This document shows, in pieces, positions 14,055-32,259 of a stretch of 40,600 nt of DNA; positions within the stretch are counted from its first letter, which is position 1, and the number at the start of each line of letters is the position of its first letter. The stretch comes from Verrucomicrobiia bacterium (lineage in GTDB: Bacteria; Verrucomicrobiota; Verrucomicrobiia; Limisphaerales; DSYF01): positions 1 to 40,600 of the forward strand of contig DASTWL010000062.1 of the NCBI GenBank assembly GCA_035765895.1, in the 5' to 3' direction. The notes beneath the pieces were generated by a model that made no database searches, was not told the origin of the DNA, and was given only the letters and a program-made list of their open reading frames with translations. Position numbers and translations under genes: made by a program.

Positions 14055-17000
14055 TCAGGCGGAGGATGAGGACGGCGCGATGGCCGGCCCGCGGGTTTTC
14101 GGGTCGTGGTTGGGAACCACCGGCAGTTTGACGTGCAGGCAGACCTTCGTGCCGTGACCGGGCAGGGATTCCACGCGACACCCACCACCGATGGCGGCGA
14201 GACGGGCGTTCAGGTTCGCGACCCCGTTGCCGCTGGCCGAGGTGGTCTCGATCACGAAGCCACGTCCGTTGTCCTCAATGATGATTTCGAGATCCCCAGC
14301 GGTTACGTTGAGCTTCAGCCAGACCTCGGTGGCTTGGGCGTGCTTGGAGACATTGTTCAGGGCTTCCTTGCAGGCGAGGAAAAGGTGGTGGCGAAAGTGG
14401 GTGGGCAGCGGAAGGTCCGGAATCATCAGGGGCAGATTCTGCCGGCAGCGCGTGCTCGAAGGGCGGAAAAATTCGTTGGCGTAGTGGCTGAGGTAATCAA
14501 CAAAATCGGGCAGCGAGTCCTTGCGCGGGTTCACCGCCCAGACGATTTCGTCCAGTGAACGGATCGCCGCCCGCGAACTGTCGGCCAGCCGGACCAGGCG
14601 TTCGCCCGCCTTGCCCGATTTGGCCGCATCGCCAACTTCGTCGGCCACCATTTCGCTGAGGAAGGCCATCTGGGTCAGCCGGGCGCCAAGGTCGTCATGA
14701 ATGTCGCGGGCAATGCGCATCCGTTCCTGTTCCACGGCGCGCGCCTGCTCCAGGGTTCTTAGTTTGCGGCGCATCTTCTGCACGTAACGATAGCGGACGC
14801 CGCTGGCCACCAGGCCGCCGAACACCAGCAGAGCCGCGGCGCGGAACCACGCGGTCTGCCAGCAGGCGGGCGTGACCTCGAAGGGAATGGAAACGGGCCC
14901 CTCGTTCCAGATCCCCTCCCGGTTGCAGGCTGTGAATCGGAAGACATATTTTCCCGGGGCCAGCCGCGGATAGGAGGCGCTGCGCGCCGGGCCGTCTTCA
15001 ATCCAGTCCGCCTCCAGCCCCACGAGTTGATGCCGGAAGTGAACCTGCTCCGGGGCGTTGAAACTGGGCGCGGTGAATTTGAAATCCAGTTTGCGGTAGC
15101 CGTAGGCAAATTTCAGGTTGAAGCGATTCGTCACCGCCTGGTCGTCCAGCAGGATCTTTTCCAGCACGGGCATCGGGGGAGGCGTATTCGTCGGAATGAC
15201 CGCGGGATTCACAACCACGGCGCCCTTGCTGGTGGCAAACCAGATGGCGCCCGAACGAGTCTGCCACACCGAGGGTTGGTAGCCGCCGATGCACTCCATG
15301 TTCGCCAGGCCGTCGTCCTTGCCATAACGGATGGCGCGGAAGCGTGCCTGCCGGCCGTCGGCAAACTCCTCCAAATCGCGCTGGCTCACGCGGACAATTC
15401 CCCGGTCCGAACTTAACCAGAAGAACCCCAGGCCATCGTCCACGATGCTGGAAATGGCGTCGTCAGCCAGCCCGTGTCGCATGTCGGCAAAGACGAACCG
15501 GCCCTGGCGCAACCGTCCCAGGCCGCCGCCCAATGTGCCAATCCACAAATCTCCATTGGGCGTGAAATGCAGCGCTCCGATGGAAGCGCCCGGCAAACCG
15601 TCCGCCGTCCCATAATGAGTGAAGCGTGTGCCATCGTAACACCACAGTTCACCGCCGATGGTTCCCAGCCACAAGTTGCCGCGCGCATCGTCGGCCATGG
15701 ACCAGATGGCATCATGGGGCAGGCCCTGATCAGCAAACTGTTGCGGGGGCGTGAACGCCCCTTCGGACAGCCGGGCCAGGCCGTCGGGCAGACAGCCCAC
15801 CCACAGGCGACCCTGCGCATCCTGATGCAGGGTTCGGATCTGCCGGTTCCGAAATTCCCGCGAATTGCCCACCCGCACGGGCATGCCCGCCTCAACGGAA
15901 TAGAGTCCCCAGCCGACGGTGCCAACCCAGACCCCGCCGCCCGGCTTGGGCAGCACGCAGGTCGTGCCAATGTTCGTAAAGCCGGCCACGCTCTCCAAGC
16001 CACCGGCCGCCGTCCATTTCAGCAACGCGGGTCCCTGGCCAGACAACCAGATGTCTCCGTTCGCGGCCTCGCACACGGAGCGCAAAACGGATTGGGGCAG
16101 CCCCTCCCGCACCGTCAACGTGTGAAATATTCTCGGCTGCAAACGACTCACCCCACCCCCCTCCGTCCCCACCCAAAGGTTGAGCTCGGCATCCTCGAAA
16201 ATCGACTGGATCCGGTGCGACGAACTGAACTCCAGGATGAACTGCTGACCCGACCGGCGAAACAGGTCACCGTGCGGCGTGCCGATCCAGAGGGTGCCCG
16301 CGTGGTCCTCGAACAGCGTCGGCTGGTCGTTCGGCTTGACGGGTGAGCGGAAGGTTTCAACGGGCTGATTGGATTCCGGGGAAGGCAGCTTTTCCAACGC
16401 AGAGCCGGCGCTCACCCACAGGCCACCGCGACGGCCCGGGCACAGGACCACGGCGGCACCAGGGATTACCGCAACGTTGGTGGCCGCGCCTTCCGCCAAC
16501 TGGCCATACGCATTGCCCTGCGCGAACCAGAGCGTTCCCTGGACGTCCCGCACCAGTTGAATGGCGCCGGAGATTCGCTCGCCCCGAAACAGCGCGACGG
16601 GATGCACCCGGTCCTCCGCATCCACCCACGAAAGACTGCCATCCTGGCAACCCACCCAGACCGTTCCGCGCAGGTCCTCGCAGAGGGTGCTGACCGTCGG
16701 ATGCGGCAGGCCGTTGCGACTGTCGATGACCGTGAAGCCGTTGCCATCATACCGGATGATCCCGGCCGTGCCGGTGCCAATCCACAAGCGCCCGTGCAGA
16801 TCAGTGTAAAGCACGCGGCTCCGCGCCCGGGTGAAACCGGCATAAAAGTCGCCCTCCATGCGCGTGAACGTGACGCCGTCGAAGCGAACCACCCCAAAGG
16901 GCGTTCCGAGCCACAAATAACCATCCGGCGTCTGGTTGATGGAGATGACCGTGTTGCGCGGGAGGCCATCATCAGTCTGCCACGTCCGGGCCCAATATCC

Positions 17001-17153
17001 GGCGTCGTCCAGCACGCCGTCGCTGCCCGGACTGCTGAACGCGCCCGGCCCCAGCAGCCATCCGAACGCAAGAATGGCCGCCCAGCAACGCGTGCGGTTG
17101 AAAGCGGGGTGAGGCAACGGAACAAGATTCGATGAAGCGCGCACAGCCGTCAA
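14055..17153 (-). CDS. sensor histidine kinase with two periplasmic Reg_prop propellers and Y_Y_Y domain
   Basis: A 1032-residue membrane sensor. After an N-terminal hydrophobic segment (AAILAFGWLLGPGAF) there are about 14 repeats of the form G-x-L-W-[LIV]-G-T-x-x-G, consistent with two seven-bladed propellers. Examples are GYLWLGTPFGVVRFDG, GRLWIGTGTAGIIRYDG, GTLWIGTPHGDLF and GDLWIGTLGGGLGRL. A Y_Y_Y domain (HFRHQLVGLEADWIEDG ... SYPRLAPGKYVF) and a transmembrane helix (AAALLVFGGLVASGV) precede the kinase. The HisKA_3 dimerisation helix has RIARDIHDDLGA with phosphoacceptor H819, and the ATPase has NNVSKHA and EDNGRGF. Family members sense oligosaccharides in the periplasm. The start is unusual: TTG 17153 or GTG 17144, with no ATG until far inside. 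Confidence 0.93.
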   Translation of the reverse strand: MTAVRASSNLVPLPHPAFNRTRCWAAILAFGWLLGPGAFSSPGSDGVLDDAGYWARTWQTDDGLPRNTVISINQTPDGYLWLGTPFGVVRFDGVTFTRMEGDFYAGFTRARSRVLYTDLHGRLWIGTGTAGIIRYDGNGFTVIDSRNGLPHPTVSTLCEDLRGTVWVGCQDGSLSWVDAEDRVHPVALFRGERISGAIQLVRDVQGTLWFAQGNAYGQLAEGAATNVAVIPGAAVVLCPGRRGGLWVSAGSALEKLPSPESNQPVETFRSPVKPNDQPTLFEDHAGTLWIGTPHGDLFRRSGQQFILEFSSSHRIQSIFEDAELNLWVGTEGGGVSRLQPRIFHTLTVREGLPQSVLRSVCEAANGDIWLSGQGPALLKWTAAGGLESVAGFTNIGTTCVLPKPGGGVWVGTVGWGLYSVEAGMPVRVGNSREFRNRQIRTLHQDAQGRLWVGCLPDGLARLSEGAFTPPQQFADQGLPHDAIWSMADDARGNLWLGTIGGELWCYDGTRFTHYGTADGLPGASIGALHFTPNGDLWIGTLGGGLGRLRQGRFVFADMRHGLADDAISSIVDDGLGFFWLSSDRGIVRVSQRDLEEFADGRQARFRAIRYGKDDGLANMECIGGYQPSVWQTRSGAIWFATSKGAVVVNPAVIPTNTPPPMPVLEKILLDDQAVTNRFNLKFAYGYRKLDFKFTAPSFNAPEQVHFRHQLVGLEADWIEDGPARSASYPRLAPGKYVFRFTACNREGIWNEGPVSIPFEVTPACWQTAWFRAAALLVFGGLVASGVRYRYVQKMRRKLRTLEQARAVEQERMRIARDIHDDLGARLTQMAFLSEMVADEVGDAAKSGKAGERLVRLADSSRAAIRSLDEIVWAVNPRKDSLPDFVDYLSHYANEFFRPSSTRCRQNLPLMIPDLPLPTHFRHHLFLACKEALNNVSKHAQATEVWLKLNVTAGDLEIIIEDNGRGFVIETTSASGNGVANLNARLAAIGGGCRVESLPGHGTKVCLHVKLPVVPNHDPKTRGPAIAPSSSSA

Positions 17154-17264: not shown

Positions 17265-18284
17265 TCACTGGCTTTTGTCCTTGAGATAGAAGGCGATGTT
17301 TTTCTGCTCGGCAATGTAATGCTCCACATTTGTTTTGGTGAGGGCGCGGGAGTCAGTGAAGATCTTCTTCCCGGACAATTGCGCATGGTCGCCCCGCAGA
17401 TACTTTTCCATGTGGGTGATGGTTTGCTTGCCAATCTGGAAGGGCTTTTGCGTGATGGTGCCGTAAATGTCGCCCGCCACGATGCCCGCCAGGGTGTCCG
17501 TGTTGTCGTCAAAGCAGACAATCTTCACCTGGCCGGTCTTACCCGCATCATGCAGCGCCGTGCGCAGGGCGGGCCCGTGATAGCCCGAGATGCCGACCAC
17601 GCCTGCCAAGTCCGGATGTTTCGCCAGTGCCGTGCGCACGTTGTTGCCGGTCACGGAACCTTTCTGGCCGTCTTCCAGCGTTTCCACAATTTCAACCTTG
17701 GAGCCGGCGAGACCGGCCTTGATGCCTTGCAGACGGTCCCGGGTGTTTTGCGCATTGGCGTAGCCGACGAACAGGACAACTTTGCCGCCGGCGGGCAGCG
17801 CTTCCTTGATCAATTCGGCGGCCTGGGCGCCCGCCGCCACGTTGTCGGTGCCAATGTAACCGAGGCGTTTGCTTTGCGCGGCGTCGCTGTCCGCGCAGAC
17901 CAGCAGGGTCCGGCCGGCCACGCGGTTGAGAAAATCCAGCTGCTTGTCCGCGTCAATCGGGCTGATCGCGATTCCGTCCACGCCGGCGGCAAGGAGATTG
18001 GACACAATTTGCTGCTGCGCCTCGACCGTTGTTTCGGACGGATAGCGGAAGTCCACGTCCACGTCGCCGAGCTGTTGGGCGGCGATGTCGCAACCGAGGT
18101 TCACCACGGCCCAGTATTCGCCGGGAGAGTTCGCCACGAAGGCCAGGTGCCATCGCTTCGGCGCCGCGCCTTCCGCCGACGGACCGTCTTTCCCGCTGCA
18201 GCCGGCGAGCACTGCCGCGAGGCACAGGGCCGGCATGAGTTGAAACAGTTGTTTTGTGATGTTGCGCGAGTGGAGCGTATTCAT
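17265..18284 (-). CDS. sugar-binding lipoprotein (RbsB-like periplasmic binding protein)
   Basis: A 339-residue protein with a lipoprotein signal: hydrophobic MPALCLAAVLAGCSG with lipobox L-A-G-C and Cys29. The mature part is a type 1 periplasmic binding protein, with LAFVANSPGEYWAVVNLG, LAAGVDGIAISPIDAD, RLGYIGTDNVAAGAQAAELI and GVVGISGYHGPA. Such proteins bind ribose, xylose, galactose or related sugars and normally feed an ABC importer. No matching permease or ATPase gene is nearby. Instead it stands immediately upstream of the sensor kinase and response regulator, on the same strand with a 111-base gap. This suggests a sensing role, or an importer encoded elsewhere. Confidence 0.9.
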   Translation of the reverse strand: MNTLHSRNITKQLFQLMPALCLAAVLAGCSGKDGPSAEGAAPKRWHLAFVANSPGEYWAVVNLGCDIAAQQLGDVDVDFRYPSETTVEAQQQIVSNLLAAGVDGIAISPIDADKQLDFLNRVAGRTLLVCADSDAAQSKRLGYIGTDNVAAGAQAAELIKEALPAGGKVVLFVGYANAQNTRDRLQGIKAGLAGSKVEIVETLEDGQKGSVTGNNVRTALAKHPDLAGVVGISGYHGPALRTALHDAGKTGQVKIVCFDDNTDTLAGIVAGDIYGTITQKPFQIGKQTITHMEKYLRGDHAQLSGKKIFTDSRALTKTNVEHYIAEQKNIAFYLKDKSQ

Positions 18285-18440: not shown

Positions 18441-19226
18441 GTGAAACCCTCCATCCCATCGCCCCAAAACGCCATGCCCGCGCGCGCGGCCTTCACGTTA
18501 ATTGAGTTGCTGGTGGTCATCGCCATCATCGCCATCCTGGCGGCCATGCTGTTGCCGGCCTTGTCCAAGGCCAAAGCCAAGGCGTATAATATCCAATGCG
18601 TCTCCAACCTGAAGCAGGTCATGCTGGGCATCACGCTGTTTGCCGCGGACAATGATGACCGGCTGCCGTTCAACACCGATCAAAACGGCAACCCCAACGG
18701 CCTGCCCTTGGGCCTCAACACGCGGAGCTCGTGGGCCGACGTCTATCCGACCCGGCCGGAGCTGGGCTTCCACATCGCGCCCTATCTGGCCAACGCCAAG
18801 ACGCTGGCCAGCGCGGGCACGTCCGAAAGCAAGGTGCTGGTTTGTCCGGCGTTTGTCCGCAACCCGCAGTATGCCGCGCGGGCGCCGCAGGCGGGGGACA
18901 TCAATCAGATGCGCCGCATGTATCGGCAGCGAGCTTACGTGGAGGGCGCCACGCTCTGGGCTTACTCGTCGCCCAAAATTGGCAACATTGCCCAGCCCTC
19001 CAGCAATGGGGCCATCGTGGACTCCGACCGGGAGTTGCCGGGCGGTGCTCCCGCCACCATGGGCGACGCGTGGGACCAGTTGCCGGACGATCCGGCTCAC
19101 GGCAAGACCCGCAATTACGCCTTCTTTGACAACCACGTGGCAACCTACTCGGCCACGACCAACCGTCACGCGGAGACGATGACCACCGGCAAACAACCTT
19201 ACGGCTGGTTCACCACCACCCGCTGA
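18441..19226 (+). CDS. prepilin-type N-terminal methylation domain protein
   Basis: A 261-residue protein with a classic type IV prepilin leader and helix: [20 protein letters not shown], then [15 protein letters not shown]. The prepilin peptidase would cleave before the Phe. The C-terminal globular part includes [19 protein letters not shown] and [12 protein letters not shown], a variant of the FADGHV-like motif near the end of many planctomycete/verrucomicrobial members. These families are greatly expanded in that superphylum, and their function is mostly unknown; pseudopilus or secreted polymer-binding roles have been proposed. GTG 18441 gives an [10 protein letters not shown] leader; ATG 18474 is an alternative. 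It heads the plus-strand block. Confidence 0.88.
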
Positions 19227-19284: not shown

Positions 19285-22200
19285 ATGAAACACACCATCA
19301 AACCATTCAGCACATTCGCCGGCGCCCTGGCCGCGATTGTGTGCCTCATCTCCGGCACGTCCGCGCCCGCCGGCGTCATCAGCGTCAACCTCGCCAATCA
19401 GGGCGGCCCGGCGTATATCGTTGGCACCGGCACGAACTATGGCATCGCCAGCCAGGGAACCTACGTCAGCGGCTGGCTGAACCTGAACAACACGGCCAAC
19501 GCCCAGAACCTGCCCTTCTCCGACGGCACGGCCAGTTCCATCGGCATGTTTGGCGTCACGGTCGGCGGCAATTTCAATTCTTACAATGGGGCCTACGCAT
19601 ATACGCCGCTTTATGCGGGCTACACCGCCTATGCTGGGGGAGCCAATTATAACGCCATCACCTTGACCAATCTGGCGGCCAATTTTCCCAACGGTTACAA
19701 GGTGATTGTTTATGTGTGTGGTTACCTGAGCGCCACGGCGGACCTCATTACGGATGGCACGACCACCAATTACTGGCATCCCTACACCACCGCACCCACG
19801 GCACCGGTGACACCCACGCAAATCACCAACACCACCCCGGGCAGTTACCAGCTCGGCCAGTATGTGGTGTATGGCGATCCAGCCTTGTTGACGGCAGACA
19901 CATTGACGCTCACGGTGCAGGCTCTTACCGGTGGCGGCGTGGGCATTTGCGGCATTCAAATTGCGGGTGTCTCCGCCAATGACGTTTTGCAACGGAAGTG
20001 GGTGGGCAATTTGAACAACAACTGGGACGACTCCAGCCTCAACTGGGCCAATGACACTTTTGGCACCACCAATTACGCGGATGGCACCTATGTTTACTTC
20101 ACCGACGCGGCGGTGGCCGCAAATCCCACGGTGAATCTTGCGTCGGCCTGGCAGCCGGGGCGGGTCATCGTCAGTTCCACCAAGAACTACACCTTCACCG
20201 GCAGCGGCATTGCGGGGGCCACGGGATTGACCAAGCAGGACACTGGCACGCTCACCCTTGGCAATCCCAATACCTACCAGGGCAACACCACCATCAGCGG
20301 CGGCAACCTCAAGCTCGGGGCCAGCAACGTCATCCCGGATGGAGCGGGCGCGGGCGATGTGTCCGTCGCCGCGGGCGCGACCTTCGACTTGAACGGCAAC
20401 AACGAAGGCATCAACGGTCTGAGCGGGTCCGGCACGGTGGACGACACGGGCGCGGCGGCGACCCTGACCGTGGGACTGGACAACGACACAATCACCTTCC
20501 CGGGCACCCTGCAAGGTGCGCTGGGCTTGACGAAATTGGGAACCAACAGCCTGACCTTGACTGGCACCGCCTATCACACGGGCGCCACCACCGTGGGCGA
20601 AGGCGGCCTGGTGCTGAATCCATCAACCTTCTCCGCCTCCGGCGACCTCGTGGTGAGCAACGGCGCGAATCTGACTCTGAGCTTCACCAACGGCGTCGGC
20701 CTTTACGCCTCCTCCACCATCAGCTTCAACGGTGGCGCAGGCCTCACGGTGGATTACGGCGATGCCAGCGCGACGGCTTACGGCGTGCCCATCACCACCG
20801 CCGGCGCGTTGAACCTGAATGGCGTCACCCAGATCGGCATTCGCGGGGTGAACTTCGGCGTCGGCACGTTCACCATCGTCAGTTACGGCGCCAAAACCGG
20901 CACTGGCTCCATCAGCAGCACCCCGGCGTTCCTGCCCAGTGGCATGGTGGCCACGATCCAGGACACCGGTTCCGCCATCAACCTGGTCGTCACCACGCCT
21001 TCCGTGCAAAGCCTGCTCTGGACGCAGGGCGACGGCGAATGGTCCACCAACGGCTACTTCAACTGGAACTTTGGCACGGCCGAATACAAGGAATACCCCG
21101 GCGGCTTCGGGGACCTGGTCAACTTTGACAACAGCAATTTTGGCACGGTCACCCTGCCCCACGACGTGCATCCCTTCGCCGTGACCGTGGCGGGCAATTA
21201 CGTGTTGACCGGAAGTGGCCGCATCACGGGCGCCACCGGCATCACCCGGGCAGGCTTCAGCGGCACCACCTTCGTGCTCGACACGACCAACACCTACACC
21301 GGCTTGACCACGGTCAGCAACGGCACCCTGCAGATCAACCGTCCCGGCGCGCTGGGCTCGGCGGCGGCTGGCACGCTGGTGGTTTCGGGGGCATCGTTGG
21401 CCTTGAGCAACGGGATCACGCTGGCGGATGAACCGCTCACGCTGAACGGCAACGGCACGGCCAGCAACAACGGTGCGCTGCGCACCGTGGACACAAACAA
21501 CCCGATCACCCTCGCCTGCCCCATCACGCTCGGCAGCACCGCCCGCATCCGCCCGGCCGACTTCGGCCAGTTGATCCTCACCTCGCCGATCACCGACAAC
21601 GGCAGCAACTACGTGCTGTTCCTGCATGCGGATCAGACCAACACGCTCGTGGTCGTTGACACCGCCAGCAACACCGTGGGCCAGGTGACCCTCTACGGAA
21701 ACACCCCGTGGCGGGGTCGCATCCGCTTCGATGTGGCAAACGCCTTCCCGTTCTCGCTGGTGAACATTGGCGGCGGCCTGTTCGATCTGAACGGCAAAGA
21801 CCAAACCTTCGCCGGCCTGGGCAACGGCTTCGGCCCCCAGTTTGGCGTCATCACCAACAGCAGCGCCTCGCCGGTCACGCTGGACGTCAACTACTCCGGA
21901 ACCAACGCCCCGCAGCTGCTGTCGGTCATTTCCGGCAATGTCAACGTGGTGAAAGACGGCACGGGATTGCAGTCATTCGGAGGCGGCGGCGGGATTGTTC
22001 ACACCTACAGCGGCACCACGACGGTCAACGGAGGCGTCTTGGGCTTTGCCAGCGACCTGTCGCAGGTGACCAACCGCTTCATCGTGAACAGCGGCGGCAC
22101 CATGCGGGGCATCACCACGATTGGCGGTCCGGTCACCATCAACCCCGGCGGCACGTTCTACGCCGGCTACGCTTCCAATGCGGTGGGCTCGTTGACCATC

Positions 22201-22677
22201 AGCAACGACCTCACCCTGGCCGGCAATACCATCGTCGCGTTGAACAAGGATGCGTCGCCGTCAAACGACGTGATCAACGTCACGGGTGCGTTGTCCTACG
22301 GCGGCACCCTGACGGTTTACAACCTTGGCACCAACGCGCTCGCGGTGGGCGACACATTCCGGATCTTCCCCAGCGGCGGCACGGGCAATTTCGCATCCAT
22401 CGTTAGCGACCCCGGCGTGACCTTCAACTTCACGGACGGCGTGTTGACAGTGGCGAGCGTTTCGTCGGTGACGTCACCCACGTTGGATGCGGCCAACCTC
22501 GGCGGCGGCGTGCTCCAGTTCAGCTGGACCGGCGCCTTCAAGCTGCAATACCAGACAAACAGCGCGGCCGTCGGCCTGGGAACGAACTGGATGGATTACC
22601 CGGATACCAGCAACCCGGTGAACGTCACCAACAGTCCGGCCATTCCGGCGACCTTCTTCCGCCTGAGTTCACAGTGA
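19285..22677 (+). CDS. large secreted autotransporter-strand repeat protein
   Basis: An 1130-residue secreted protein. Signal peptide: MKHTIKPFSTFAGALAAIVC then LISGTSAPAG. Residues about 31-230 form a domain shared with the next two genes (VISVNLANQ ... FPNGYKVIVYVCGYL ... CGIQIAGVS). About four autotransporter-associated beta-strand repeats follow, for example TGTLTLGNPNTYQGNTTISG, NTYTGLTTVSNGTLQINRPG and TYSGTTTVNGGVLGF. These build an extended beta-helix. There is no C-terminal beta-barrel, so it is not a classical autotransporter. The last 60 residues (LQYQTNSAAVGLGTNWMDYP ... ATFFRLSSQ) form a short module found at the C-terminus of many verrucomicrobial secreted proteins. Surface display or matrix binding is likely; no enzymatic motif was seen. 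Confidence 0.85.
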   Translation: MKHTIKPFSTFAGALAAIVCLISGTSAPAGVISVNLANQGGPAYIVGTGTNYGIASQGTYVSGWLNLNNTANAQNLPFSDGTASSIGMFGVTVGGNFNSYNGAYAYTPLYAGYTAYAGGANYNAITLTNLAANFPNGYKVIVYVCGYLSATADLITDGTTTNYWHPYTTAPTAPVTPTQITNTTPGSYQLGQYVVYGDPALLTADTLTLTVQALTGGGVGICGIQIAGVSANDVLQRKWVGNLNNNWDDSSLNWANDTFGTTNYADGTYVYFTDAAVAANPTVNLASAWQPGRVIVSSTKNYTFTGSGIAGATGLTKQDTGTLTLGNPNTYQGNTTISGGNLKLGASNVIPDGAGAGDVSVAAGATFDLNGNNEGINGLSGSGTVDDTGAAATLTVGLDNDTITFPGTLQGALGLTKLGTNSLTLTGTAYHTGATTVGEGGLVLNPSTFSASGDLVVSNGANLTLSFTNGVGLYASSTISFNGGAGLTVDYGDASATAYGVPITTAGALNLNGVTQIGIRGVNFGVGTFTIVSYGAKTGTGSISSTPAFLPSGMVATIQDTGSAINLVVTTPSVQSLLWTQGDGEWSTNGYFNWNFGTAEYKEYPGGFGDLVNFDNSNFGTVTLPHDVHPFAVTVAGNYVLTGSGRITGATGITRAGFSGTTFVLDTTNTYTGLTTVSNGTLQINRPGALGSAAAGTLVVSGASLALSNGITLADEPLTLNGNGTASNNGALRTVDTNNPITLACPITLGSTARIRPADFGQLILTSPITDNGSNYVLFLHADQTNTLVVVDTASNTVGQVTLYGNTPWRGRIRFDVANAFPFSLVNIGGGLFDLNGKDQTFAGLGNGFGPQFGVITNSSASPVTLDVNYSGTNAPQLLSVISGNVNVVKDGTGLQSFGGGGGIVHTYSGTTTVNGGVLGFASDLSQVTNRFIVNSGGTMRGITTIGGPVTINPGGTFYAGYASNAVGSLTISNDLTLAGNTIVALNKDASPSNDVINVTGALSYGGTLTVYNLGTNALAVGDTFRIFPSGGTGNFASIVSDPGVTFNFTDGVLTVASVSSVTSPTLDAANLGGGVLQFSWTGAFKLQYQTNSAAVGLGTNWMDYPDTSNPVNVTNSPAIPATFFRLSSQ

Positions 22678-22798
22678 GCAACAAAAAAACGACTTTGACC
22701 TTGTTGGTTGGCGGCGGTGGGCGCTCGCCTGCTGGGGAGCTGACGGACGTCCCGCCGCCACATTTCAAACAGCGCAAAACCCATCCTTCAGAAAAATC

Positions 22799-23575
22799 AT
22801 GAACCACACCCATCATCGCCCCTCCCAACACCTGCTTCCCTGCCTGCATCTGGGCTTGCTATTCAGCAGCCTGGCCGCGTCCGCACAGATTGTGAGCGTG
22901 AACCTGATTCAAAACCCCGGCAACAACGCCCAGCAAATCGATGCCACCGAAACCTTCGGCATTGCCACCTTGGGCTCGGTGGTTGGCGGCTGGCACAATA
23001 TTAATGCCGCGTCCTCCAATCTCACCGACGCCGCCGGAATCACCACCAGTCTAGATGTCTCCCTCACCCAGCCGAATGGCCAGGCGACTTTCAACTCCGC
23101 CTACTCCGACACGCCCCTGTTCGCCGGCTTGGACGATTACACCACCACAGCCAGTCCGGTCTCGATCACCATCAGCGATCTCAACGCCACGTTCAGCTCC
23201 GGCTACTTTGCCATCGTTTATGTCGGCGGCTTCAACGCCAACACGGGCGCCTCGATTACCGATGGCACCACAACTTATTTCTACCGTCCCCTGCCCTCGC
23301 CTTCGGCGCCGGTGAACTTCGTTCAAACCCTCCAGACCACGGATCTCGGCGACGGTAACAATCCAACGGCGCAGTATGCGGTCTTCGGCAGCTACGAGTC
23401 GCCGCTCACCGCCGACAGCATAACCTTTACACTCAATACGCTTTACGGTGGCGGCGCGGCCATCGGCGGGCTGCAGATCGTGGCCGTGCCCGAGCCGGCG
23501 TCATTTTCGCTGGCCCTGATGGGAGGCTTGGGCTTGCTGTTGCTGGCCCAACACCGGTCACGAAATCGGGAGTAA
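22799..23575 (+). CDS. PEP-CTERM protein carrying the shared N-terminal domain
   Basis: A 258-residue secreted protein. Signal peptide ends near LAASAQ (residue 30). Residues 31-227 are the domain shared with its two neighbours (IVSVNLIQN ... GWHNINA ... TPLFAGL ... SSGYFAIVYVGGF ... ITDGTTTYFYRP ... AQYAVFG ... GGLQIVAV). The C-terminus is a textbook PEP-CTERM sorting tag: VPEPAS, a hydrophobic helix (LALMGGLGLLLLAQ) and a basic tail (HRSRNRE). In known systems exosortase cleaves here and the protein is released to the exopolysaccharide or surface. No exosortase is in the window. This gene is nearly the isolated shared domain, which makes it useful for defining the domain's borders. Confidence 0.88.
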   Translation: MNHTHHRPSQHLLPCLHLGLLFSSLAASAQIVSVNLIQNPGNNAQQIDATETFGIATLGSVVGGWHNINAASSNLTDAAGITTSLDVSLTQPNGQATFNSAYSDTPLFAGLDDYTTTASPVSITISDLNATFSSGYFAIVYVGGFNANTGASITDGTTTYFYRPLPSPSAPVNFVQTLQTTDLGDGNNPTAQYAVFGSYESPLTADSITFTLNTLYGGGAAIGGLQIVAVPEPASFSLALMGGLGLLLLAQHRSRNRE

Positions 23576-23618
23576 ACTCCCGGCCATCAGGGGCGGCCGC
23601 GGGCCGGTTGCTTGGACA

Positions 23619-23645
23619 AACTCTCCCGCACAATGCGGGAGAGTT
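23619..23645 (+). terminator. strong hairpin terminator after the PEP-CTERM gene
   Basis: AACTCTCCCGCA-CAA-TGCGGGAGAGTT forms a perfect 12-bp stem with a 3-base loop, 43 bases after the stop at 23575. Only a short T-rich tail (CTT) follows. It implies that the next gene starts downstream of this point. Confidence 0.75.
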
Positions 23646-23796
23646 CTTGGCTTGGGATGGACAACCATTGATGCACGAACAAATGCGGACCGGACGCGAA
23701 CAAGACCACTGGCAACAATTCGCCAATAACCGACTGATCCTGCCTCTGACAGAGCAGAGCGCCTCGATTGGCATTTACCCCCACCGCTCACAGCAT

Positions 23797-26700
23797 GTGC
23801 AGAAAGCGGCCGAGGCCCGCTGGTTCTTTGCCGCGATTGTGGCGTTCGCGATGATTTGCTCGGCCAGTGACGCAAGCGCCGCCGTCATCAGCGTGAACTT
23901 CATGCAATACGCGTCGCAGACCGTCAGCGGCGTTTATGGCGTGACCAACCAGGACAGCGTCGCGGCCGGCTGGTTGAACTTGAATCAGGTAAACAATTTC
24001 AATGCGCTGCCGCTGGCGAACGGGACGAACAGCACGGTGAATCTTTCAGGCGGCACGCCATTGTGGGCGTCCGGCTCCGCGGCGTATGCCGGCACGCCGC
24101 TCGGCGCGGGCAAGGCGACTTACGTGGGCGGCAGTTCGCCGACCATCACGCTGGCCAATCTAAACGCCAATTTTCCCTTTGGCTGCAAAGTCATCGTTTA
24201 TTTCGCGGGCTATCTGGACAACGCCAATGCGTTGGTCACGGATGGCGCCACGACCAATTATTTTCGCTCCGCGAGCAGCACCGCGGAAATCACCAATGCG
24301 CTCGCGGCGGGACTGTATCCCACCACGCAGACCACGGATTTGGGCAGCGGCAATAATCCGCTCGCGCAATACGCGGTGTTCGGCAACGGCGCGTTGCTCA
24401 CCAATGACACGGTCACCATCTCCTTGACGGAACTGGCCGGCTCGGGCGCGTGGATTGCGGGATTTCAAATCGTGGGCGCGGCGGCGGACACCGCGGCCCC
24501 GCGACTGTTCACTTCGGAAGGTTTTGCCGCGAGCAATTATGCGGCGGGTGTTTCGCTGATCAACAACGCCACGCTGGGCTACGGCTTTGACGGGCCGTGG
24601 ACGGGTTACGGCGGCCAGGTCAAAGCGGTGGCGGGCAGTCTCAATTATTCCGGCTACGGCGCGGACGGCGAGAACCACGTGATGGTGACCAACAACGCGG
24701 CCATCCGCCGGACCTTGCTCGCGGGTAACAACGGGCCGCTGGGAAATTACTGCGACACGAATGGCTTGGTTTCTCTGTCGCGAGATGGCGCGCCGCTTTA
24801 CCTCGCGTTTCTCGTTTATGCGTCCACAAACCAGTCGCCGGGCGGCAACTTCAGCCTGTATATCGGCGATTACTCCGGGACCAACCGGTTCTTCATGGTG
24901 CAACTGGCCACGACGAATCCGTATCCGCTCACCATCACGATTCCCTACGACGGTGCGCCGCAGACGTTGGGTAATAATAATGGCGCGGCAAATCTGGTCG
25001 TGGCGCGCTTCGATTTTGCCGGCGCCAACGGCGCTGTCCGGCTCTGGCTGAACCCTTCGACCAGCGGCGCGGAACCGATGCCGGATGTTACACTCACCAA
25101 TTTAAACATCGCGTTTGACCGCCTGCAACTGACGCATGGCTATGCGAGCGGCGCGGCTGAATTTGACGAAATTCGCTTCGGCAACAACTGGGCCGCGACC
25201 GTCCAGTCGGCGGCGCTGGCGACTTTACCCGGCCAACAAACATTGGTCGGCATGCGCGGCCTGCCGCCTTCGCCCATCGGCGGCACCAATTTTCCGCGCG
25301 AATTTTTTCCGTTCGTGGACGCGTTCGGCCAGTATCGCTTTCTGGACTGGACCAACAAGGTGCATTCGCTGGCCGAATTGCAACAGCGCGCGGCGGACGA
25401 GACGGCGGATCTGTCGTCGCATCCCGGCTCCGATCAGTGGGACCAATACGGCGGCTGGCTGAACGGCCCACAGCTCGCGGCCACCGGGTTTTTCCGCGTG
25501 CAAAAATATCAGGGCGACTGGTGGTTCGTGGATCCGGATGGACACCTGTTCTGGTCGCACGGCGTCACCGGCGTCAACGCGCCGAGCGTGCCCACGGCGG
25601 TGACGGGCCGGAAAAATTATTTCGCCAACCTGCCGCAACCGGGCGACCCGACGGTTGAATTTCTCGCCCCGAATGGAAGCAACGTCACCGGCGTCAACGC
25701 GCCGAGCGTGCCCACGGCGGTGACCGGCCGGGAAAATTATTTCGCCAACCTGCCGCAGCCGGACGATCCAACCGCCGGCTTCCTGACGCCGTGGGGCAGC
25801 ACGGTTTCCGGCGGGTATTACAATGGCAGCAATCCGTTGACGATGGATTTTTACGCCGCCAACGCCTTTCTGAAATACGGCCCAAACTGGTATTGGTTCA
25901 CGCGCGATTTGGACCAGACGCGCCTGCGGAGCTGGGGCTTGAACACAATCGGTTCGTGGACTGTCAGCGACACGTATCTGCTTCGCCGCACGCCTTACGC
26001 TCGTGTGTTTTACCCGTATGTCGGCAACATCAATGGCGACAGCCGGCTGCCCGATTATTTCAATCCGGCGTTTGCCACGGCGCTGACGAATGTCCTGAGC
26101 GGGCCGGAACGCAACGATCCCTGGTGCCTCGGATTTTACATCAACAACGAATTGGTGTGGGCAAACCAAGGGCTTTTTACGGACGAGAAAGACGTGGCGC
26201 GCACGGCTTTGGCCGCCGTGAACACGTCGTTCGCCAAAGCGGCGTTGCGCGACCAGCTCATGAGCAAGTATGGCACGATTGCCGCGCTCAACGCCCAATG
26301 GGGCACGAGCTACGCGTCCTGGACCGATTTCCTGAACCAGCGTGCCACACTGCCGAGCGGCACGAGCGGCGACACGGATTTGACGGCGTTTTACCGCAAT
26401 TACGCCGAGCAATTCTTCCGCACCTGCGGCACGGTCATTCACAGTTACACGAGCAATCTGTTTCTCGGCTGCCGCTTTGCCGGGCCGTATCCGGACGCCG
26501 CGCGCGCCTGCACGAACTACGTGGACGTGGCGAGCGTCAATTCCTACGCGAGCACGTTCAGCATTCCGGCGGGATTGGAGGCGGACATTCCGGTGCTCAA
26601 CTCGGAACACAATATTTGCGCCAAGGACACCGGCTTGTTCTGGGGCGGCCTGAACACCGTTTCCAGCCAGGCCCAGCGCGCCAGTTCCTACACCAGCCAT

Positions 26701-27423
26701 TTCAACAGCGCGATCGGTAATTCGCGCATCGTGGGCACGCATTGGTTTCAGATGCTGGACCGCAGCACGACGGGCATTCTTAATTCCGATGCGGACGGCG
26801 ACAACAACAACGGCCTCGTGGACGTTTGCGACACGCCGTATTATCCATTGATCGCCGCCGTGCGCAGCGCCGGTCAGGCGATGTATTCCCAGCGCCTCGG
26901 CACCGCGCCGCCGACGATTTCCGCCCTCACCAATCGCACCATCCAGGTCAACACCAGCACGGGGCCGATGGCTTTCACCGTGGGCGATGACACGACGGCG
27001 GCGGGCTCTCTGACGGTGAGCGGGGCGTCGTCCAACAACAATCTGGTCCCGCCGGGCAACCTTGTTTTCGGCGGCAGCGGCGCGAATCGCACCGTCACCG
27101 TCACGCCGCAAGCCGGCTGGGCGGGCACGGCCGACATCACGCTCACGGTGACGGATGCCTCCGGCGCGCGCGGCTTCGCGACCTTTACGTTGACGGTGCT
27201 GCCGAATCCGCCGGTGCTGAACAGCTTCGCGGTCAGCGGTCAAAACTTTCAGCTCACCGTTTCCGGCAATGCCGGCCTGAACTATTACCTGCAAACTTCG
27301 ACGAATCTGACGGATTGGCAGACGGTGTTTACCAATCTGAACGCCACGCCGCCGTTCGTCTGGAGCGATGCTGGAACTACGAATTATCGCAGCCGGTTTT
27401 ACCGCGTTTTATTGAGTCCGTGA
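23797..27423 (+). CDS. secreted GH50/agarase-like glycosidase with shared N-terminal domain
   Basis: About 1208 residues from GTG 23797, which gives a clean signal peptide (MQKAAEARWFFAAIVAF, then AMICSASDASA). The frame is open upstream to TTG 23608 (ATGs at 23671 and 23683), but that region overlaps a terminator hairpin. Residues 29-228 are the domain shared with the two preceding genes. A beta-sandwich segment (about 240-470) leads to a clan-A-like glycosidase core with FFRVQKYQGDWWFVDPDGHL, LRSWGLNTIGSW, FYINNELVWA (E785, likely acid/base) and IPVLNSEHNI (E937, likely nucleophile). These fit GH50 beta-agarases best; a related family is possible. Ig-like and QTSTNLTDW-type C-terminal modules follow. 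A 40-codon tandem duplication lies inside the catalytic core. Confidence 0.8.
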   Translation: MQKAAEARWFFAAIVAFAMICSASDASAAVISVNFMQYASQTVSGVYGVTNQDSVAAGWLNLNQVNNFNALPLANGTNSTVNLSGGTPLWASGSAAYAGTPLGAGKATYVGGSSPTITLANLNANFPFGCKVIVYFAGYLDNANALVTDGATTNYFRSASSTAEITNALAAGLYPTTQTTDLGSGNNPLAQYAVFGNGALLTNDTVTISLTELAGSGAWIAGFQIVGAAADTAAPRLFTSEGFAASNYAAGVSLINNATLGYGFDGPWTGYGGQVKAVAGSLNYSGYGADGENHVMVTNNAAIRRTLLAGNNGPLGNYCDTNGLVSLSRDGAPLYLAFLVYASTNQSPGGNFSLYIGDYSGTNRFFMVQLATTNPYPLTITIPYDGAPQTLGNNNGAANLVVARFDFAGANGAVRLWLNPSTSGAEPMPDVTLTNLNIAFDRLQLTHGYASGAAEFDEIRFGNNWAATVQSAALATLPGQQTLVGMRGLPPSPIGGTNFPREFFPFVDAFGQYRFLDWTNKVHSLAELQQRAADETADLSSHPGSDQWDQYGGWLNGPQLAATGFFRVQKYQGDWWFVDPDGHLFWSHGVTGVNAPSVPTAVTGRKNYFANLPQPGDPTVEFLAPNGSNVTGVNAPSVPTAVTGRENYFANLPQPDDPTAGFLTPWGSTVSGGYYNGSNPLTMDFYAANAFLKYGPNWYWFTRDLDQTRLRSWGLNTIGSWTVSDTYLLRRTPYARVFYPYVGNINGDSRLPDYFNPAFATALTNVLSGPERNDPWCLGFYINNELVWANQGLFTDEKDVARTALAAVNTSFAKAALRDQLMSKYGTIAALNAQWGTSYASWTDFLNQRATLPSGTSGDTDLTAFYRNYAEQFFRTCGTVIHSYTSNLFLGCRFAGPYPDAARACTNYVDVASVNSYASTFSIPAGLEADIPVLNSEHNICAKDTGLFWGGLNTVSSQAQRASSYTSHFNSAIGNSRIVGTHWFQMLDRSTTGILNSDADGDNNNGLVDVCDTPYYPLIAAVRSAGQAMYSQRLGTAPPTISALTNRTIQVNTSTGPMAFTVGDDTTAAGSLTVSGASSNNNLVPPGNLVFGGSGANRTVTVTPQAGWAGTADITLTVTDASGARGFATFTLTVLPNPPVLNSFAVSGQNFQLTVSGNAGLNYYLQTSTNLTDWQTVFTNLNATPPFVWSDAGTTNYRSRFYRVLLSP
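25563..25802 (+). repeat. 120-bp imperfect tandem duplication within the glycosidase gene
   Basis: Two consecutive 120-base units begin at 25563 and 25683. The first 75 bases or so of each differ at only two or three positions; the rest has diverged. Both keep frame and encode TGVNAPSVPTAVTGR followed by K/E-NYFANLPQP. They sit just after the WWFVDPDGHLFWSHGV motif at about residues 589-668. Confidence 0.9.
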
Positions 27424-27580: not shown

Positions 27581-29029
27581 ATGCAAACCAACGTCCTCAT
27601 CACGGCCCTGCTGGGCAGTTTGCTGGCGCTGACGGCGTCGGCTGAATCCGTCGGCAACGGCGCGGCTTCGTCGGCGAATCGTCCGTCGGCCAAGCCGAAT
27701 TTGATCATCATCCTGACCGATGATCAGGGTTATCACGACGTTGGGTTCAACGGCTGCAAAGACATTCCCACGCCGAATCTGGACTCCATCGCCGCCAACG
27801 GCGTGCGGTTTTCCAATGGTTACGTTTCCTACTCCGTGTGCTCGCCCAGTCGCGCCGGGCTGCTGACCGGCCGTTACGAGGAGCGTTTCGGTCACGAACG
27901 CAATCCGCAATGGCAGCCGGAGAACATTCATTCTGGCCTGCCGCTGACCGAAACCACGCTGGCGGACGCGCTGGGCCATGTCGGTTATCACAGCGGCATC
28001 ATTGGCAAATGGCATTTGGGCAGCCATCCGGCGTTGCATCCGCTCAAGCGCGGGTTCAATGAGTTCTTCGGCTTTCTCGGTGGCGGGCATCGGTATCTGC
28101 CGGAAGAATTGACGCTCAAAGAAACCAGCGAGGCTAAAAATGCAAACGAGAGCGACAGTTATCGGCTTTGGATCTTGCGCAATTACGAGCCGGTCAAGAC
28201 GACGAATTATCTGACCGATGAATTTTCCGATGAAGCCGTGCGTTTCATTGATCGGAACAAAGACAAACCGTTCTTTCTTTATCTCGCCTACAACGCGCCG
28301 CACGCGCCGCTGGAGGCGACGGAAAAATATTTGAGCCGGTTTCCGAACATCAAGAATCCCAAGCGCCGCACTTACGCGGCGATGATCAGCGCCGTGGACG
28401 ACGGCGTCGGGCGCGTGCTCGCGGCATTGCGCCAGCAGGGATTGGCCGACAACACGCTTGTCTTTTATCTCTCGGACAACGGCGGGCCGACCGACGCGAA
28501 TGCGTCCAACAATCACCCGTTGCGCGGCGGCAAAGGCAGTCCGTGGGAGGGCGGCTGGCACGTGCCGTTCGCGTTGCAATGGCCGGGACATTTGACGGCC
28601 GGAAAAGTTTATGAGCAGCCGGTGTTGTCGCTGGACATTTTTGCCACGATGGCCGCGCTGGTGAACGTGCCGACCGATCCGGTGCGTCCGCTCGACGGCG
28701 TGAATTTGCTGCCGTATCTCACCGGCCAGAAATCCGGCGCGCCGCACGACACAATTTATCTGCGGATGTATGACAAGGGCGCGTTTGCCGTTCGCAGTGG
28801 CGATGACAAACTCGTGATTCCCAAGCGCGGCGCCGCGCCGGAGTTGTTCAACCTCTCCCGGGACATTGGCGAATCAAAAAACCTGGCGAACGATTCCGGG
28901 ATGCAGCCAGTCGTGGAAAAGCTGGAAAAACGGCGCGCCGACTGGAACAGTCAGCTGGTGCCGCCGGTCTTTCCCGGCCTGATGCAGGCCGGCGGCCTGC
29001 CAAAGAAACCCACAGCAGCGGAGGATTAG
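27581..29029 (+). CDS. sulfatase, S1 family (formylglycine type)
   Basis: A 482-residue secreted sulfatase, first in a four-gene operon. Signal peptide MQTNVLITALLGSLLALTASA. Metal-site residues D47-D48 lie in IIILTDDQGYHDVG. The modification motif is C87-S-P-S-R in SYSVCSPSRAGLLTGRYE, where the Cys becomes formylglycine. GIIGKWHLG and FYLSDNGGP complete the active site. S1 sulfatases remove sulfate esters from carbohydrates or aryl compounds. The regiospecificity cannot be read by eye. Length is normal for the family. The next gene starts 3 bases after its stop. No formylglycine-generating enzyme or anSME is in the window. Confidence 0.93.
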   Translation: MQTNVLITALLGSLLALTASAESVGNGAASSANRPSAKPNLIIILTDDQGYHDVGFNGCKDIPTPNLDSIAANGVRFSNGYVSYSVCSPSRAGLLTGRYEERFGHERNPQWQPENIHSGLPLTETTLADALGHVGYHSGIIGKWHLGSHPALHPLKRGFNEFFGFLGGGHRYLPEELTLKETSEAKNANESDSYRLWILRNYEPVKTTNYLTDEFSDEAVRFIDRNKDKPFFLYLAYNAPHAPLEATEKYLSRFPNIKNPKRRTYAAMISAVDDGVGRVLAALRQQGLADNTLVFYLSDNGGPTDANASNNHPLRGGKGSPWEGGWHVPFALQWPGHLTAGKVYEQPVLSLDIFATMAALVNVPTDPVRPLDGVNLLPYLTGQKSGAPHDTIYLRMYDKGAFAVRSGDDKLVIPKRGAAPELFNLSRDIGESKNLANDSGMQPVVEKLEKRRADWNSQLVPPVFPGLMQAGGLPKKPTAAED

Positions 29030-29032
29030 GAA

Positions 29033-30607
29033 GTGCGTCGCAACAGATTCCCATTCTTTACTCTGATCCTTTTGGCACTGAGCTTGGGTCTGGGCGACCG
29101 TGCCCTGGCCGACAAACCGAACGTTCTTTTCATTCTGGTGGATGACTACGGCGTCAAGGACGTGGGCATCGAAGGCAGCAAATTTTACGAGACGCCCAAC
29201 ATTGATGCGCTGGCCCGCAGCGGCATGCGGTTCACCCAAGGCTACGCGGCGTGCTGTGTGTGCAGTCCTTCGCGCGCGAGTATTTTGCTCGGCCAATACA
29301 CCACGCGCCACGGCATCACCGACTGGGTCGGCGAAGATGCAGGCGCAAAATTTGCCCGCGAACGCCACACCCCGTTGCTCGTTCCCGATTACGCTCGCAA
29401 TCTGCCCGCGAACGACACCACGCTGGCCGATGCGTTCAAGCAGGCGGGTTACGTGACGTTCTTTGCCGGCAAATGGCATCTGGGCAGCAAAGGCGCCTGG
29501 CCGGAGGATCGCGGCTTCGACATCAACAAAGGCGGTTGGGATGCCGGCAGTCCGATGGGTGGTTATTATGCGCCGTGGAAAAATCCCAATCTGCCCAACG
29601 GTCCGCGCGGCCAGTCCTTGACCCAGCGGCTGGCGGACGAAACGATTTCGTTTCTCGAACAAAGCACGAACAAACCGTTCCTGGCCTATCTCGCGTTTTA
29701 CGCGGTGCATGGGCCGATTGAAACCAGCAAGCCGCTCTGGGAAAAATTTCGCGCGAAGGCGGCGGCGCAACCCAAGCCCAGGGAACGCTTTGAAATGGAT
29801 CGCACCTTGCCGGTGCGCGTCGTGCAGGATAATCCGATTTACGCGGGACTGATTGCCAACATGGACAACGCCGTGGGACGCGTGCTGCAAAAGCTCGACG
29901 AGCTCGGCCTGGCCAGCAACACCATTGTGGTTTTGACCGGCGACAATGGCGGCGTGGTTTCGGGCGACAGTTACAGCTCGTGTGAATTTCCGTTTCGCGG
30001 CGGCAAGGGACGCCAATGGGAAGGCGGCACCCGCGTGCCATTTTACATCCGCGCTCCCGGCGTTACCCAGCCTGGCAGCACTTGCACCACGCCGGTCAGC
30101 GGCATTGATTTCTTCCCGACCCTGCTGCAACTGGCCAATGTCCAAGTGCAGCCCAAACAGGTCATTGACGGCGTGAGCCTCGTCCCGTTGTTAAATGGCG
30201 GCAGCATCACGCCCCGACCGTTGTTCTGGCATTACCCGCATTACGGCAATCAGGGCGGCGAACCGTCGTCCATCGTTCGCGACGGGGATTGGAAGCTGAT
30301 TCATTACTGGGAGGACGGCCACAACGAACTTTACGACCTGGCCACCGACATTGGCGAACGACAGGATCTGGCCAAAAGCGAACCGCAACGCACGGCGGAA
30401 CTGTGGTCGGAATTGTCGGCGTGGTTGAAGGCAACGAACGCCAAGCTGCCGCAGCCCAATCCGGATTACCAGCCGGCCTGGGCGGTGCAACAGCACACGG
30501 CGGCGCTGAAGCTCAAGGAGCGGCTGGAAAAACAACACGCGGAATTTCTGGATCCGAACTGGCAGCCGGATCCCACCTGGTGGAAAAGCCTGACGACGAA
30601 GGACTGA
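29033..30607 (+). CDS. sulfatase, S1 family (formylglycine type)
   Basis: A 524-residue secreted sulfatase starting at GTG 29033, preceded by a good ribosome-binding site (GGAGGATTAGG at about 29019-29029), one of the few in this window. Signal peptide: RFPFFTLILLALSLGLGDRALA. Metal site FILVDDYGVKDVG (D37-D38), formylglycine motif C77-S-P-S-R in ACCVCSPSRASILLGQY, FFAGKWHLGS and VLTGDNGGV are all present. The C-terminus ends with NWQPDPTWWKSLTTKD. It is distinct from its upstream neighbour in sequence, so the two may act on different sulfate positions of one polymer. Translation is probably coupled to the preceding gene. Confidence 0.93.
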   Translation: MRRNRFPFFTLILLALSLGLGDRALADKPNVLFILVDDYGVKDVGIEGSKFYETPNIDALARSGMRFTQGYAACCVCSPSRASILLGQYTTRHGITDWVGEDAGAKFARERHTPLLVPDYARNLPANDTTLADAFKQAGYVTFFAGKWHLGSKGAWPEDRGFDINKGGWDAGSPMGGYYAPWKNPNLPNGPRGQSLTQRLADETISFLEQSTNKPFLAYLAFYAVHGPIETSKPLWEKFRAKAAAQPKPRERFEMDRTLPVRVVQDNPIYAGLIANMDNAVGRVLQKLDELGLASNTIVVLTGDNGGVVSGDSYSSCEFPFRGGKGRQWEGGTRVPFYIRAPGVTQPGSTCTTPVSGIDFFPTLLQLANVQVQPKQVIDGVSLVPLLNGGSITPRPLFWHYPHYGNQGGEPSSIVRDGDWKLIHYWEDGHNELYDLATDIGERQDLAKSEPQRTAELWSELSAWLKATNAKLPQPNPDYQPAWAVQQHTAALKLKERLEKQHAEFLDPNWQPDPTWWKSLTTKD

Positions 30608-30639
30608 TTCTCCCTGACGTGTTGCCAGACCTCAAATTT

Positions 30640-32259
30640 ATGACCACGAAGAAGTCATTGTTCCCAAAAAATGCGCGCCGCTTGGGCTGTGTGCTGGTCG
30701 CCTGGTTTTCCCTGCCGGGTCTCGCTCCGGCGGCAACCGCCGCGCCCGTGCCCATCGGCAACTCCAAGCCCAACATCGTGCTCATCGTGGCCGACGATTT
30801 GGGCTATGGCGACCTCGGTTGCTACGGAGCGACAAAAATCCAAACGCCCAACGTGGACCGGCTCGCCTCGGAAGGCGTGCGCTTCACCCAAGGTTACGCG
30901 CCGTCCTCGACCTGCACGCCGTCGCGGTTTTCGCTGCTGACCGGTGAATACGCCTGGCGCCAGAAGGACAAGAAGAACAGCATTCTCGATGGCGACGCGC
31001 CGTTGTGCATTGACGTGGGGCGCTTGACGCTGCCGGAAATGCTGCGCCGCGCGGGCTACTACACCGGCATTGTCGGCAAATGGCATCTCGGCTTGGGTGA
31101 CGGCCAGACGCCGGTGAATTTTAACAACGAAATCAAACCCGGTCCGCTCGAAGTGGGCTTTGATTATTCCCACATCATTCCCGCCACCGTGGACCGCGTG
31201 CCGAGCGTGTGGATTCAGAATCACCAGGTTGTCGGCCTCGACCCGGTGGACCCGATCACAGTGAGTTACGTCACCAACATCAGTGACGACTCCACCGGCA
31301 TGGATGCCATGGAACGTCCCGACTTGCTCACGCACTACGGCGCGGACAAACAGCATTCCGGCACCATCGTCAACGGCATCAGCCGCATCGGTTATATGCG
31401 CGGCGGCCACGCGGCGCGGTTCAAGGACGAAGACTTGGCGAAGACCGTCGTGGCGAAATCCGTGGCTTATCTCGAACAGCACAAGGACGGTCCGTTCTTT
31501 CTCGAAATCGGCCTGTTCGAGCCGCACGTGCCGCGCGTGGCCGAATCACCGTTTGTCGGCAAAAGCCAGGCCGGGCTGCGCGGCGATGTGATTGAGCAAA
31601 TTGACTGGGAAACGGGCGAAATCATGAAGGCGCTCGACCGGTTAAATCTTACGACGAACACGCTCGTCATTCTGACCAGCGACAACGGCCCGGTGCTGTT
31701 TGATGGTTACTATGACCATGCCAGGGAACAGTTGAACGGCCATGAACCCACCGCCGGGCTGCGCGGCTGGAAATATCTGGTGTTTGAAGGTGGTTGCCGC
31801 GTGCCGTTGATTGCGCGGTGGCCGGAGCAAATCAAGCCGCGCGTGACCGATCAACTGTTCAACCTGGTAGATTTCATGGCCACATTGGCAGGCATAGTGG
31901 GACAAAAAGTTCCGTCTTCCATCGCGCCGGACAGCCTCGATTTATCCGCCGTGCTGCTGGGTCAGACGACGAAGAATCTGCGGCAGGACACCGTGCTGCA
32001 TGGCATTTCGGACACATTGGCGCTGCGCTGGGGCGATTGGAAATATGTTCCCGCCAACGCCAAGGCCAAAGCGAGCGGCATGGGCAGCGGGGCCAATCCA
32101 AGTGACAACCGTTTTGTGGAGGCGCGCATCACTCATCCGTTGCTGTTCAACCTCGTCAAGGATCCCGACGAACAGACCAACGTCATCAGTCAGTTTCCGA
32201 AAAAGGCGGCCGAGATGCGCACCCGGCTCGCGGCAATCAAGAATCGGACGGCAAAATGA
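30640..32259 (+). CDS. sulfatase, S1 family (formylglycine type)
   Basis: A 539-residue secreted sulfatase from ATG 30640. The frame is open further upstream inside the previous gene (to TTG 30289), but only ATG 30640 gives a proper signal region (NARRLGCVLVAWFSLPGLAP ... ATAA). Motifs: NIVLIVADDLGYGDLGCYG (D52-D53), C92-T-P-S-R in STCTPSRFSLLTGEYAWR, TGIVGKWHLGLGDG and ILTSDNGPVLFDGYYDH. This resembles the subgroup of arylsulfatase A-like enzymes. It starts 32 bases after the second sulfatase and overlaps the beta-helix gene by ATGA. Three different sulfatases in one operon imply a polymer with several sulfate positions. Confidence 0.93.
   Translation: MTTKKSLFPKNARRLGCVLVAWFSLPGLAPAATAAPVPIGNSKPNIVLIVADDLGYGDLGCYGATKIQTPNVDRLASEGVRFTQGYAPSSTCTPSRFSLLTGEYAWRQKDKKNSILDGDAPLCIDVGRLTLPEMLRRAGYYTGIVGKWHLGLGDGQTPVNFNNEIKPGPLEVGFDYSHIIPATVDRVPSVWIQNHQVVGLDPVDPITVSYVTNISDDSTGMDAMERPDLLTHYGADKQHSGTIVNGISRIGYMRGGHAARFKDEDLAKTVVAKSVAYLEQHKDGPFFLEIGLFEPHVPRVAESPFVGKSQAGLRGDVIEQIDWETGEIMKALDRLNLTTNTLVILTSDNGPVLFDGYYDHAREQLNGHEPTAGLRGWKYLVFEGGCRVPLIARWPEQIKPRVTDQLFNLVDFMATLAGIVGQKVPSSIAPDSLDLSAVLLGQTTKNLRQDTVLHGISDTLALRWGDWKYVPANAKAKASGMGSGANPSDNRFVEARITHPLLFNLVKDPDEQTNVISQFPKKAAEMRTRLAAIKNRTAK

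Follow-up and report, generated by a model that had tools for sequence, protein, structure and literature searches.

Verrucomicrobiota are noted degraders of sulfated polysaccharides, and how their secreted enzymes stay near the substrate and the cell is poorly described. A stretch of 40,600 nucleotides from a Verrucomicrobiia bacterium (assembly GCA_035765895.1, contig DASTWL010000062.1; hereafter the window, meaning the whole stretch analysed) raises this question in a concrete form. Why do three adjacent genes, with unlike C-terminal parts, encode secreted proteins that share one N-terminal domain of about 200 residues? We find that this domain is widespread, is an accessory module of a general type already known and has no name in Pfam or NCBIfam, and that the three genes belong to a polysaccharide-utilisation cluster that also encodes three sulfatases. 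The domain is probably sugar-binding, and its probable part is in retaining enzymes and surface proteins on one polysaccharide, which is perhaps sulfated; to call this polysaccharide a sulfated galactan or the like would be guesswork.

The original prediction, made from the letters of the window, held that the three neighbours share this domain, and its homology in all three proteins is confirmed by pairwise identities of 39-43% (79/201, 89/209 and 80/205 aligned columns). Local alignment with BLOSUM62 scores the three pairs at 305-353, whereas shuffled sequences average 47-51 and never exceed 93 (z = 29, 35 and 32; 2000 shuffles per pair). A MAFFT alignment of the three copies has about 50 invariant columns, including SVN, GWxN, TPLxAG, IVY, DGxTT, QYxVxG and QI, so that the predicted landmark motifs hold, with a small misfit to DG-x-TT-x-Y-[FW] in the copy of the 258-aa protein, which reads DGTTTYFY. 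These are the only strong copies in the source genome, all at one locus, and one further weak, partial match lies on another contig.

The three different C-terminal fates that had been described were also found. The first gene (19285..22677, + strand, as are the other two) encodes a protein of 1130 amino acids (aa) with a signal peptide, the domain at residues 31-230 (19375..19974), autotransporter-type PATR repeats in its C-terminal part (PF12951, TIGR02601) and a C-terminal NW...FFRL tail. PATR repeats are present in this protein and no autotransporter barrel model was matched at E values up to 1, so that we do not class it as a type V autotransporter. The second gene (22799..23575) encodes a secreted protein of 258 aa, in which a signal peptide and the domain (residues 30-230; 22886..23488) are followed directly by a PEP-CTERM sorting tail (23483..23548) with VPEP, a hydrophobic stretch and a basic end. 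The tail scores 19.5 bits, just below the cut-off of 20.7, and the motif is visible directly; with two exosortase genes elsewhere in the source genome and eight other PEP-CTERM matches, we count the protein among the PEP-CTERM proteins. The third gene (23608..27423) has an open reading frame (ORF) of 1271 aa from TTG, or 1208 aa from GTG at 23797, and places the domain (residues 29-228; 23881..24480) N-terminal to a glycosidase. Between the second and the third gene, at 23600-23660, lies an inverted repeat, AACTCTCCCGCA...TGCGGGAGAGTT, with no T-run after it, which is possibly a transcription or mRNA-stability element.

The glycosidase belongs to family GH50. Residues 552-1099 align with the GH50 beta-agarase 4bq2 (E = 2.4e-66), and in the catalytic region (25261..26904, + strand), which is followed by a Big_9 immunoglobulin-like domain (26908..27195, +), both GH-A catalytic glutamates are kept, aligned to Glu534 and Glu695 of Aga50D. 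Among the other active-site residues whose roles are described for Aga50D (Asn533, Phe742, Arg752 and Glu757, besides the two glutamates; PMC11079163), Asn533 and Phe742 are kept, Arg752 is replaced by Ile and Glu757 by Asp. Agar is therefore not secure as the substrate, and the label "agarase" was rejected because of these two changes; GH50 also contains beta-1,3-glucanases (PMC11079163). The GH50 region further bears an in-frame tandem duplication of 120 bp (25563..25802, +; 40 aa, 83% DNA identity). The relative in L012 has the unit only once, and the duplication is thus lineage-specific or an assembly effect.

It is also evident that the domain corresponds to no named family in the databases searched, as the original prediction had supposed. 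When the three proteins and 18 diverse copies of the domain were scanned against Pfam and NCBIfam, no family that covers it was matched; the 18 copies scanned alone yielded only weak, isolated matches, each to a single one of the copies (best E = 0.013-0.021). Among the best stretches listed for full-length relatives, no Pfam family lies over the domain itself, and a profile search of PDB sequences with the domain gave nothing significant.

Is the domain peculiar to this locus? A profile search of Verrucomicrobiota, which had been proposed as a check, detected it with an 18-member profile in 54 of 388 sampled genomes, about one in seven, which is a minimum, as the scoring covered just a few candidates in each genome. 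In the close clade its distribution is patchy, with strong copies in 2 of 293 genomes of the order and none in the sampled genome of the same genus. With iterated profiles we collected 76 copies in 65 proteins. One copy lies outside the phylum, in a type IX secretion system (T9SS) protein of Flammeovirga (Bacteroidota); this copy adjoins a GH88 gene and has SusD/TonB-receptor genes in the same stretch. A search of phage records gave no match, one of IMG/VR no relative, and one of plasmids with a divergent copy likewise none. The loci were chosen by profile score, and the following counts of partners and stand-alone copies are therefore not those of a random sample. Among the partners are sulfatases (L013, L032, L106), GH50 (the window, L012/L031), GH16 (two proteins), GH27, beta-helix proteins and PATR repeats, as well as DUF1800, PKD, TSP3, PA14/LamG, CotH and trypsin-like regions. 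One recurrent architecture places the domain ahead of a C-terminal DUF1800 region, in L040, L073, L076, L087 and similar large proteins of Verrucomicrobiota (about 1650-1760 aa). Eleven proteins shorter than 340 residues contain little besides the domain, and 10 of these 11 end in a PEP-CTERM tail directly after it. A different tail, TxL..W....(F/Y)(F/Y/L)R(L/V), ends 25 of the 65 domain-bearing proteins, including the PATR and GH50 proteins of the window (ends at 22677 and 27423), compared with 10 of 560 other ORFs of at least 250 aa in the same loci, an enrichment that is a rough guide because many of the 560 may be spurious. Perhaps this tail is a further module without a name, acting in sorting or at the surface.

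The position of the domain varies as well, being N-terminal, internal or C-terminal (internal or C-terminal in L013, L032, L034, L036 and L092). These results agree with the idea of a mobile module, in that the domain is recurrent and independent of position. They do not agree with the targeting role that had been offered beside it, by which a sorting module would direct secreted proteins to a given envelope layer. Such a role would fit the three window proteins, where the domain follows the signal peptide and the C-termini are unlike; elsewhere, however, its place can be internal or C-terminal, and proteins with the domain also bear tags that are themselves dedicated to sorting, PEP-CTERM in 10 of the 11 short proteins and the T9SS tail in Flammeovirga. 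For both reasons a sorting role is unlikely, and we give it very little credence.

Two AlphaFold2 models of the domain, built on a five-sequence alignment, are all-beta (pTM 0.66 and 0.73; mean pLDDT, the per-residue confidence score, 60 and 68.5). The nearest PDB structures to the first model are 2o14 (the N-terminal domain of YxiM, Z = 7.9), TmCBM61 (Z = 7.0) and 8x8h (a pectate-lyase carbohydrate-binding domain, Z = 7.0). The second model finds 8x8h, 6d50 and 2o14 at Z = 6.4, the malectin-like ANXUR and FERONIA at about 6, and CBM86 and CBM35, where CBM denotes a carbohydrate-binding module. Further neighbours are CBM36, a porphyran-binding module (Z = 6.5), MAM and Eph domains, and SGBP-B. 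Galactose-binding-like jelly rolls dominate these neighbours; as every Z is below 8 and the values are mostly tied, the models point to no more than the fold class. Foldseek returned low TM scores to mixed jelly rolls, from which only the shared fold class was used, and the matches of a fold search in BFVD, for the most part phage tail proteins and entries without a name, formed no coherent family.

How the three copies arose can be asked by comparison with a second genome (G390), which belongs to another genus of the same family and already has the domain fused to PATR and to GH50. Approximately unbiased (AU) tests under two models disfavour grouping the three window copies as one clade (P = 0.013 and 0.019), and a recent local triplication is therefore unlikely. 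The predicted spread by duplication thus holds only loosely, and not as one recent event at this locus. The tree grouping had suggested concerted evolution of the copies within each genome; this was dropped, as strict orthology of the window and G390 copies was not rejected overall (AU P = 0.17) and grouping by genome is not statistically better. A test under LG+C20 against orthology of the GH50-linked domain is borderline (P = 0.04). Between the window and G390, identity is 67% over the PATR body and 72% over the GH50 body, whereas it is only 50% over the fused domains, which makes the domain the fastest-changing part. This faster divergence speaks for a structural spacer, a generic ligand-free beta-sandwich like many immunoglobulin (Ig)-like linkers in large secreted proteins, and so does the presence of the domain in multi-domain proteins with many PKD, Ig, TSP3 and fn3 repeats. 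However, the stand-alone proteins contain little more than the domain and an anchor, and certain residues persist across the phylum: Gly23 and Trp34 are invariant in the 76 copies and Gln195, Tyr110, Phe165 and Gly49 nearly so (residue 1 being where the aligned copy of the 258-aa protein begins), the Trp and the Gln speaking against a spacer. We regard a plain spacer as improbable, second among the rivals.

The main rival is a module for protein-protein assembly or for a surface matrix, in which the copies would bind one another, or share a binding partner in the envelope, and so assemble the enzyme, the fibre and the PEP-CTERM protein at the surface. Five of the 10 PEP-CTERM stand-alone copies (the window, L030, L036, L039 and L071) immediately adjoin a longer protein with the same domain, copies sit on neighbouring proteins with unlike bodies, and those of one locus often cluster in the tree (L036, L039, L030). 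Moreover, many partners have no sugar-active part, and some fold-search neighbours (MAM, Eph) bind proteins. Nevertheless, single isolated copies are common, the window and G390 copies do not group by genome significantly better than by orthology, and glycan binding explains the carbohydrate context of the cluster at least as simply. We hold assembly through the domain itself to be unlikely, though less so than the other alternatives. The recurrent pairing of an anchored stand-alone copy with larger copies is to us the most interesting feature of the system. In parallel to the window, three adjacent genes of another genome (L036:5337-11025) each contain the domain: one encodes it on a GH27 enzyme, one as a stand-alone copy with PEP-CTERM and one on a protein with Ig domains.

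The cluster around the three genes bears on the nature of the ligand. Downstream, on the + strand, are sulfatase 1 (27581..29029; 75% identical to its syntenic relative), sulfatase 2 (29033..30607), sulfatase 3 (30289..32259; ORF from TTG, Pfam match from residue 161, 76% identical to its syntenic relative) and a right-handed beta-helix protein (32256..33920). Further genes of the cluster encode GH2, GH43, heparinase-like and GH88 proteins, a GDSL esterase and sugar transporters. Upstream are a sensor kinase with Reg_prop and Y_Y_Y sensor regions, likely the cluster regulator (14055..17153, - strand), a periplasmic sugar-binding-type protein (17265..18284, -) and a prepilin-like (N_methyl) protein (18441..19226, +). 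The cluster is syntenic in G390 (whose 10,429-base contig C151 corresponds to JALOTU010000084.1, isolate Prado241): the order of sensor kinase, binding protein, prepilin-like gene, PATR protein with the domain and short PEP-CTERM domain protein is kept on one contig, where a beta-helix protein with a fourth copy of the domain follows the short gene. A second G390 contig has, in this order, the GH50 protein with the domain, two sulfatases, a beta-helix protein and a sulfatase, and we infer that the two contigs adjoin.

The polysaccharide locus, together with the carbohydrate-active and surface partners, fits glycan binding, and the invariant Trp, nearly invariant Gln and conserved Tyr and Phe are counted on the same side. 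We thus favour, with moderate confidence, a carbohydrate-binding-module-like accessory domain through which the enzyme, the fibre and the anchored protein would share one glycan target; the binding, the common specificity and the surface location are all inferred. Three secreted products of one presumed sulfated-polysaccharide cluster, the GH50 glycosidase, the PATR-repeat surface or fibre protein and the small protein, each carry a copy, and the last would be held at the envelope through PEP-CTERM and exosortase. If the copies all bind one polysaccharide, or closely related ones, the enzyme would stay on its substrate and the substrate close to the cell, as the neighbouring sulfatases and other hydrolases of the window process it. 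Several points weigh against this view. No sequence match to a named carbohydrate-binding family was found in the Pfam, NCBIfam and PDB searches, and the models, from five sequences, have a pLDDT of 60-69 and no Z that reaches 8, so that the structural match may reflect only the common jelly-roll arrangement. Many copies, moreover, sit on proteins without a sugar-active domain (DUF1800, trypsin-like, PKD, TSP3), for which reason some branches may have a ligand other than a glycan, and with Arg752 and Glu757 changed the substrate of the enzyme need not be agar. A stronger version of the favoured reading, which we advance tentatively as a rather long shot, is that the domain serves a degradation unit of Verrucomicrobiota as its shared glycan receptor, where enzyme, repeat fibre and anchored stand-alone copy bind the same sulfated polysaccharide, a functional surface assembly without cohesin/dockerin or SusCD. 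A PEP-CTERM stand-alone copy adjoining a larger copy-bearing protein would be the signature of such an assembly. The domain, which is fused to sulfatases and glycosidases and recurs as a PEP-CTERM stand-alone protein, is a concrete, assayable candidate for keeping secreted enzymes in place, and would close an annotation gap in many proteins.

Among the closest known systems are the galactose-binding-like CBMs (CBM6/35/36/61/86 type), whose beta-sandwich jelly roll is the best match to our all-beta models, though at Z below 8, and which occupy the same accessory place on secreted glycosidases and sulfatases (here the GH50, GH16, GH27 and sulfatase fusions in a polysaccharide cluster). The domain differs from them in its length, about 200 aa compared with 124-151 aa for most of the matched CBM chains, and in having no sequence match to Pfam, NCBIfam or PDB entries. 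To malectin and malectin-like domains the strand order is similar by eye, and ANXUR and FERONIA are among the structural neighbours, although no Pfam malectin profile was matched at a permissive threshold. Solved GH50 agarases such as Aga50D and AgWH50C also carry N-terminal carbohydrate-binding domains, at the same position on a GH50 enzyme (PMC11079163). The likeness is one of position; a further region of about 260 residues parts the domain from the catalytic part in the window protein, and its phmmer match to Aga50D begins only at the catalytic half. The PEP-CTERM/exosortase system, with the same VPEP tail on a short protein and exosortases in the genome, accounts for the anchor and not for the shared domain. 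Finally, the SusE/F and SGBP-type proteins of Bacteroidota loci likewise place a non-catalytic, glycan-binder-like protein beside the enzymes, and SGBP-B is a structural neighbour; no SusC/D pair was seen among the window genes scanned, and the window protein is attached via PEP-CTERM, whereas theirs have a lipoprotein anchor.

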